In this document: positions 13,999 to 14,621 of the stretch, piece after piece | How positions within the stretch are numbered: the stretch's first letter is position 1 | Layout of the letters: each line of letters starts with the position of its first letter | Virus record (IMG/VR): IMGVR_UViG_3300020166_000019 | Span: 1-64,000 of that record | DNA from: a virus | DNA length: 64,000 nucleotides | Direction: 5' to 3' (one strand) | The notes under the pieces: model-generated | Database searches by the model: none | The model's input: the letters and a program-made list of their open reading frames with translations, nothing else | Told to the model about the DNA's origin: nothing | Made by a program: the position numbers and the translations under genes

Positions 13999-14006
13999 TA
14001 TAAATA
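13999..14006 (+). promoter_or_regulatory. Late promoter TATAAATA before the structured RNA
   Basis: A perfect TATAAATA on the plus strand, 21 bases after the stop of the frameshift product and about 60 bases before the structured segment. No protein gene follows for 680 bases, so its product would be the RNA at 14060-14480 and possibly the nuclease gene. Confidence 0.5.
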
Positions 14007-14059
14007 AAATACAAAACTAATATATTTCTAACATAGGCCAATAATATGACTAATATAAC

Positions 14060-14480
14060 GTATAACATAGTGGGCCTGTTGATCGGATACCCGATTCGGG
14101 ATTGAGACTGCCAGTTGAAATAATCTGTCGCCGTCAGACTAGTGGGGATGAATTCCTGCAATCTTCTCGTAAACCACATATACAAGTATTCTAATTACAA
14201 CAGCCGCATCTCTAAAGGCGTGTGGTTGACCAGCTTAATAATATAACCGATGATAGGCTACTATAGCACTATCGGCTCTGTGATGTTTTTTAATGTATAG
14301 ATATCATAAGGGTGCCGTTGGGTCGTAAGACGCAATAGTGAATGACGAGGGAATCGCCAACCGACCTCGCTGTATCTGGCAGCTAGTTCACATACATTAG
14401 GTACGAAACATAGGACAGGATACAACCTGTTTATAGTTTTTTATCAATTGTCCTGGCAACAGGGCAATTGTGGATACTCT
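14060..14480 (+). ncRNA. Candidate large structured RNA, unclassified
   Basis: A 706-base gap between genes (13979-14684) holds a block visibly richer in G and C than its flanks. It has no credible reading frame and many stems: ATCGG/CCGAT (14082-14086, 14091-14095); AACCACA/TGTGGTT (14172-14178, 14221-14227) enclosing GCC/GGC; a CCGAT...ATCGG stem (14247-14275) with inner GCTA/TAGC; GTC-GTAA-GAC (14322-14331); and ACAGG/CCTGT (14415-14430). A perfect 11-bp stem closed by GCAA (14445-14470, one G-U) completes it. GTTGG/CCAAC and CGAGG/CCTCG (14317-14369) interleave as a possible pseudoknot. GNRA loops and pseudoknots occur in ribozymes and ornate phage RNAs such as GOLLD or ROOL. I could not match it to any family from memory. 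It shows no tRNA features. The flanks, 13979-14060 and 14480-14600, are AT-rich and hold nothing else I can support. Confidence 0.6.
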
Positions 14481-14605
14481 TCAGGACAGAATATATAAGA
14501 TTGACTATATTATAATATATAATACCATGTAATAATATTATTAATTTAAAAAACAAATACTGAATTAATTGAATGAGTGAAACGAAAGAAATTAATGAAA
14601 GTATT

Positions 14606-14621
14606 GGGTCTTTAGACCCTT
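14606..14621 (+). terminator. Hairpin that may end the RNA transcript
   Basis: GGGTC-TTTA-GACCC followed by TTAAAG, 64 bases before the nuclease gene. The stem is clean but the U tract is only two bases, so termination is doubtful. Confidence 0.35.

Follow-up and report, generated by a model that had tools for sequence, protein, structure and literature searches.

GOLLD and ROOL are large RNAs of phages that assemble into multimeric cages and whose function is unknown (PMC12286853); the cage is a 14-mer in the case of GOLLD and an octamer in that of ROOL, and a tRNA neighbourhood is often seen with both. GOLLD has an Rfam model, frequently measures more than 800 nt and is often found close to tRNA islands (PMC12286853). 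Here we describe a structured RNA from a 64,000-nucleotide stretch of DNA (the window), which belongs to the 78-kb record of a marine T4-like phage (IMG/VR record IMGVR_UViG_3300020166_000019). A first-pass annotation had suggested an undescribed class of large structured RNA at this place, and the suggestion is supported: Rfam/Infernal searches were negative, the homologous gaps 3' of gp26 in related phages were collected and hold the RNA, and covariation among them is strong, the proposed pseudoknot included. Rfam 15 gave no match for the window, for its positions 13960-14690 (cmscan, E ≤ 10) or for diverged homologues; matches at E of about 0.7 to 8 were put down to chance. The Rfam covariance models of GOLLD and ROOL matched neither the window nor its homologues (cmscan), and the two are excluded as homologues only insofar as these models do not match. 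ARAGORN predicted 0 tRNAs in the 64-kb window, and no earlier report of the RNA was found in open-licence PubMed Central. Present in none of the RNA catalogues searched, the RNA very probably represents a new family of viral RNA.

The RNA is located in a small plus-strand island amid minus-strand genes (all features below are on the plus strand unless stated otherwise). It occupies a gap without a credible gene between an ORF at 13757-13978 and the gene of a PDDEXK nuclease or RusA-like resolvase (14685-15230; PF24608, phrog_244). A gp26-like baseplate gene (12918-13760; Pfam PF12322, phrog_150 baseplate hub) provides the syntenic anchor, and the site is further surrounded by genes for a portal protein (PF07230) and for AAA_23 and metallophosphatase proteins, which we take to be gp46/gp47-like. 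By portal and gp26 the nearest cultured relatives of the window phage are jumbo phages, e.g., Phosso and PA5oct, and by portal Atu_ph07 and SCTP-2 are also near; contigs of RNA-bearing relatives reach 342,607 and 342,181 bases. As a separate observation, a 689-aa protein without a family match, encoded on the minus strand between portal and gp26 (10747-12816), evolves much faster than its neighbours (about 28% identity at lowest among the representatives, the portal staying at about 63% or more).

Most of what had been read from the single sequence was recovered, i.e., the gap itself, TATAAATA at 13999-14006, a hairpin at 14606-14619, a G+C-rich block (0.39-0.49 in 14050-14450 versus 0.16-0.33 just outside), a GTAA-capped stem at 14322-14331 and an interleaved pair of helices (GTTGG 14317-14321 with CCAAC 14357-14361, and GAGG 14347-14350 with CCTC 14365-14368). 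The GCAA-capped terminal stem is present at 14447-14468, but its cap varies among homologues, whereas the core hairpin keeps its GNAA cap. The statement that no reading frame is credible also held, as the longest stop-free run of each homologue (n=55) shifts in strand and frame and measures 43-116 codons. Folded alone, positions 14060-14500 are modestly unusual (z -2.15; 1 of 100 shuffles equally good), which by itself would prove little; it is comparative evidence, not single-sequence folding, that puts the RNA beyond chance.

Homologues were collected with the PDDEXK protein as first query, which gave loci where the RNA precedes a PDDEXK gene, and the set was enlarged by DNA patterns from conserved stretches, the matches being verified by profile. 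The RNA was matched in 133 of the first 140 loci (many of which overlap on one contig). After exclusion of partial copies, 55 distinct full-length copies with pairwise identities down to about 60% were aligned and clustered at 95% identity into 32 representatives. None of 84,980 prokaryote genomes gave a supported match to the core pattern (five pattern matches in genome contigs lacked profile support and were rejected). Against 50,697 phage records, blastn with the RNA of the window returned short chance matches only, and with the RNAs of two further loci (L071 and L094) no match. The covariance model built here (R1) gave weak, chance-level scores on the whole genomes of PA5oct and Atu_ph07 and no match on those of Phosso and SCTP-2, and neither R1 nor nhmmer detected the RNA in the gp26 regions of these four phages. 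A weak match in L031 (E 0.13) was likewise put down to chance.

RNAalifold applied to the 55 sequences yielded a nested fold in which many pairs are compensated. As null, 60 alignments were simulated on the maximum-likelihood tree and folded likewise, without realignment; the covariation and fold tests used the 431 of 502 columns that have less than 40% gaps. The consensus energy was -145.7 kcal/mol compared to a simulated mean of -61.4 (sd 11.4, best -92.4; n=60), 71 pairs were kept in every sequence versus 21.3 in the simulations, and 26 of these perfectly kept pairs were changed on both sides (0.7 expected, maximum 2). The consensus fold of the plus strand was better than that of the minus strand (-145.7 vs -102.4), and unpaired stretches of the RNA also show strong sequence conservation. 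The structure of the RNA is conserved and under strong constraint. In the test of all column pairs only one exceeded every simulated value, and it is the global fold test, not single-pair covariation, that is decisive.

The core unit of the RNA comprises about 407 nt (14066-14472; consensus fold and compensatory changes among the 55 distinct homologues). Its 5' end pairs with its 3' end (14066-14069 with 14469-14472) around a terminal hairpin (14447-14468, from the pair table), so that the unit reads as closed. The 5' domain (14070-14177, also from the pair table) consists of a helix, 14070-14073/14174-14177, and two hairpins, 14081-14086/14091-14096 and 14142-14147/14154-14159; in both hairpins several pairs are changed on both sides, whereas the helix is invariant and covariation therefore gives no test of it. 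It is followed by a hairpin with pairs of several types at 14201-14228 (alignment A2, columns 145-173) and one with compensated pairs at 14252-14273 (alignment A2, columns 223-245).

The pseudoknotted core domain (14292-14398) is delimited by a closing helix, 14292-14298/14392-14398, and contains the GNAA hairpin (14322-14331) and three further helices (14338-14343/14386-14391, 14347-14350/14365-14368 and 14369-14373/14379-14383). In this domain 99.0% of 1056 cells were paired and 17 of the 33 pairs were doubly changed; when the partner was displaced by 1-3 columns as a control, only 0-2 doubly changed pairs were obtained. The pseudoknot joins GUUGR (14317-14321) with YCAAC (14357-14361) and is paired in 32/32 representatives. 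The GTTGG/CCAAC pairing named in the first-pass annotation contains the column pair with the strongest covariation of the whole alignment (14321-14357, above every simulated value; n=60), the remaining four pairs of the helix being invariant in the 32 representatives. The window scores 114.7 bits with R1. Of three held-out sequences, L211 and L221 each form 30 of the 33 predicted pairs and L154 forms 31, and the pair types not present in the set number 1 in L211, 4 in L221 and 0 in L154; a 3-bp UCG/CGA hairpin around the CCAAC loop has its middle pair broken in two of these distant relatives. Downstream of the core, a 3' element (14555-14621) is made up of an AATACT..AGTATT stem with GAGTGAAACGA at its apex and the hairpin GGGTCTTTAGACCC. 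Compensatory changes were found across 46 distinct copies of this element, and the 3' hairpin is present in 32/32 representatives, 65-118 nt after the core. The element is possibly a terminator or a processing signal; since the hairpin has no long T run, termination is not assured.

The distribution of the RNA was surveyed with gp26, using the best 80 of 585 loci that encode a gp26 relative. In these 80 loci the RNA is present in 60/60 evaluable loci with a gp26 identity of 44% or more. Among the 20 loci without it, two (L167 and L218; gp26 identity 44% or more) are truncated where the contig ends, and the other 18 have a gp26 identity of 38% or less; four of the 18 have less than 786 nt after gp26 and are too short to evaluate, and the RNA was found in 0/14 of those with at least 786 nt. 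The RNA accordingly marks one phage clade and, as far as these loci show, is universal in it. Distances of the RNA and of gp26 are correlated (Mantel r 0.88; 29 loci), which argues for vertical inheritance, and the RNA, differing at most by 39% in nucleotides, is less diverged than the baseplate protein, which differs by up to 53% in amino acids. The gene that follows is variable: 8 of the 32 representatives have a PDDEXK gene, 23 a SegE-type GIY-YIG gene and one (L102) a radical SAM gene (the nuclease class was judged by eye from sequence, Pfam having been applied only to the proteins of the window and of L085), and L221 has a further, different ORF after the RNA. As a side observation, the PDDEXK resolvase-like and the SegE-type GIY-YIG nuclease have been exchanged behind the RNA in otherwise syntenic genomes. 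At four loci (L031, L032, L034 and L035) a PDDEXK relative is encoded but the RNA is absent. Because the RNA tracks the phage lineage while the next gene varies, it is neither a mobile passenger nor tied to the gene family behind it.

The reading we favour, with a probability of roughly 0.65, is that of a free-standing noncoding RNA acting in trans, i.e., with a transcript of its own and a pseudoknotted body of about 407 nt, most likely serving as a scaffold. The RNAs would constitute an uncatalogued family of large structured noncoding RNAs, encoded by one clade of T4-like phages that is known from environmental contigs and probably consists of jumbo phages. During infection the RNA would be made as a separate transcript that starts upstream of the CUAAUA repeats and ends at or near the AGGUCUUUAGACCU hairpin, would fold into a compact pseudoknotted body, and would act in trans as RNA; most likely it would serve, after the fashion of GOLLD and ROOL, as a scaffold for a protein, for another RNA or for further copies of the same RNA. 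This reading is supported by the promoter-like sequence that the RNA has of its own in 15/32 representatives, a sigma-70-type TTGACA-17-TAGTAT at 106-143 nt upstream; a few further representatives show less strict forms at the same spacing. Each such site is only mildly unusual alone (3-11 of 100 shuffles), and the sites recur at one place. In 10/32 representatives, including the window, a clear sigma-70-type promoter is absent, so that the RNA may there be read from the gp26 operon. The window has a 5' leader (13982-14057) with four copies of CTAATATA (at 13982, 13993, 14017 and 14050) and TATAAATA, which we take to be a T4-type late motif. The CTAATA repeats immediately before the core occur in 2-6 copies in 32/32 representatives, but the late promoter proposed earlier did not prove to be a general feature, with TATAAATA upstream of the RNA in just 5/32 representatives (in one of which the sequence before the RNA is incomplete, counting all 32). 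Counting against a free-standing RNA is its constant position 5' of a same-strand coding gene, and all the evidence is genomic.

It is this position that speaks for the first alternative, in which the RNA would act in cis as a very large regulatory leader of the next gene, usually a nuclease, and would be either riboswitch-like or a processing element. A same-strand ORF begins soon after the 3' hairpin in 32/32 representatives (in L064 the mechanical ORF start precedes the hairpin, but the nuclease itself starts after it, at MSEW), 31/32 of these ORFs are nuclease-like, and a nuclease pathway common to the 31 is possible. Nevertheless, we consider a leader unlikely: the following ORFs come from unrelated families (radical SAM in L102, another ORF in L221) while the RNA is unchanged, and no constant tie to one gene family or pathway was found among the 32 representatives. 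In addition, two hairpins separate the core from the start codon, and the RNA follows the gp26 phylogeny.

Two direct repeats, R1 (14412-14418) and R2 (14483-14489), both AGGACAG in the window, flank the terminal hairpin and co-evolve: they differ between clades but are alike within one RNA, a sequence's own R1 and R2 resembling each other more than they do the R2 of other RNAs in 52/55 sequences. Pairing of R1/R2 with the terminal hairpin, or in alternative stems, was tried by eye and failed across clades. An antisense or guide RNA, in which R1 and R2 would pair with a varying target, could account for this pattern; as the repeats have only 4-9 nt in common and most of the conservation lies elsewhere, we regard it as distinctly improbable.

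A ribozyme or a decayed self-splicing intron would agree with the conserved unpaired stretches, the pseudoknot and the GNAA tetraloop, and also with the SegE homing endonuclease relative that adjoins the RNA in 23/32 representatives, a structured RNA beside an endonuclease gene being what group I introns with homing endonucleases likewise present. The likeness to group I introns that had been noted before did not survive the searches, however: Intron_gpI (RF00028) was not detected in the window's genome, while a control search was positive in 4/14 genomes, and no intron or ribozyme of Rfam was matched. The core interrupts no gene, being situated between the ORF at 13757-13978 and the complete PDDEXK ORF, the PDDEXK relatives in the four loci mentioned above occur without the RNA, and inheritance is vertical. 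We therefore attach very little weight to this explanation. Least probable of all is a DNA-level element (an origin or a recombination site) that is foldable only incidentally, for although the CTAATA and direct repeats and the small plus-strand island amid minus-strand genes would suit it, pairing within one strand is indicated both by the compensatory changes and by the better consensus fold of the plus strand.

Structured-looking gaps were also observed in other phages. In the Sinorhizobium phage Phosso an unannotated gap of 1 kb on the minus strand (PV764938.1, 229759-230772, corresponding to L142:2260-3273) lies 3' of gp26 and just before a resolvase gene, and it folds strongly (L142:2290-3150, z -3.42, 0/20 shuffles). 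No credible Rfam match and no relative among other phage records was found for this gap; the slot that the present RNA has in its clade may here be taken by another large RNA. In PA5oct (NC_071039.1; L141:2380-3330, minus strand) the slot measures 951 nt, contains small hypothetical ORFs and folds with z -3.03 (0/20 shuffles); 11 records agree here at 99.5% identity or more, too uniform a set for covariation. Gaps of similar appearance occur in two gp26 relatives that are more distant and lack the present RNA (L238:4515-5107, z -2.26; L240:5042-5470, z -2.03); as judged by eye the gaps share the motif AGGCGGU..CCGGUACC, and they perhaps represent a further RNA family.

A more far-reaching proposal, which we put forward tentatively and with the odds somewhat against it, is that the RNA belongs to a new class of large functional RNA that defines its clade, is important to a widespread group of T4-like jumbo phages and has a job in infection unlike that of any known RNA family, and that unrelated large RNAs (Phosso, PA5oct) have perhaps arisen independently in the same slot. 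If true, the slot downstream of gp26 would be a standing home for large RNAs in related jumbo phages. The structure model is suited to probing, cryo-EM and searches of metatranscriptomes, by which the use of big RNAs by jumbo phages becomes testable.

Large structured noncoding RNAs are few in bacteria and phages; GOLLD and ROOL build RNA-only cages, and the present RNA would be another of this size class, absent from Rfam. CfrI, PhotoRC-II, wcaG and the glutamine riboswitch are also noncoding RNAs of T4-like phages (of marine ones), but in the parts of the sources that treat them they are antisense or cis-regulatory and concern photosynthesis or metabolic genes (PMC9602691, PMC2864571), and none of them is matched in the window by Rfam. 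GOLLD is similarly large, complex and phage-encoded and is known also from marine environmental DNA (PMC12286853); it differs from the present RNA, with its core of about 407 nt, its lack of tRNAs in the 64-kb window and its lack of an Rfam match. ROOL is likewise a large RNA of phages and prophages, with several pseudoknots and, in the sections of the source devoted to it, no known protein partner (PMC12286853), whereas the present RNA has neither an Rfam match nor a tRNA island and is known from sequence alone. The genomic traits of large structured phage noncoding RNAs in general are found in it (encoded by a phage, without an ORF, and with a complex conserved fold supported by covariation), and expression during lytic infection, a further trait of the kind, would be expected. 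Judged by the Rfam models, the RNA would be a family unrelated to GOLLD and ROOL that appears alike to them in general character, and it combines a conserved structure, vertical inheritance and universal presence in its clade with independence from the family of the downstream gene.
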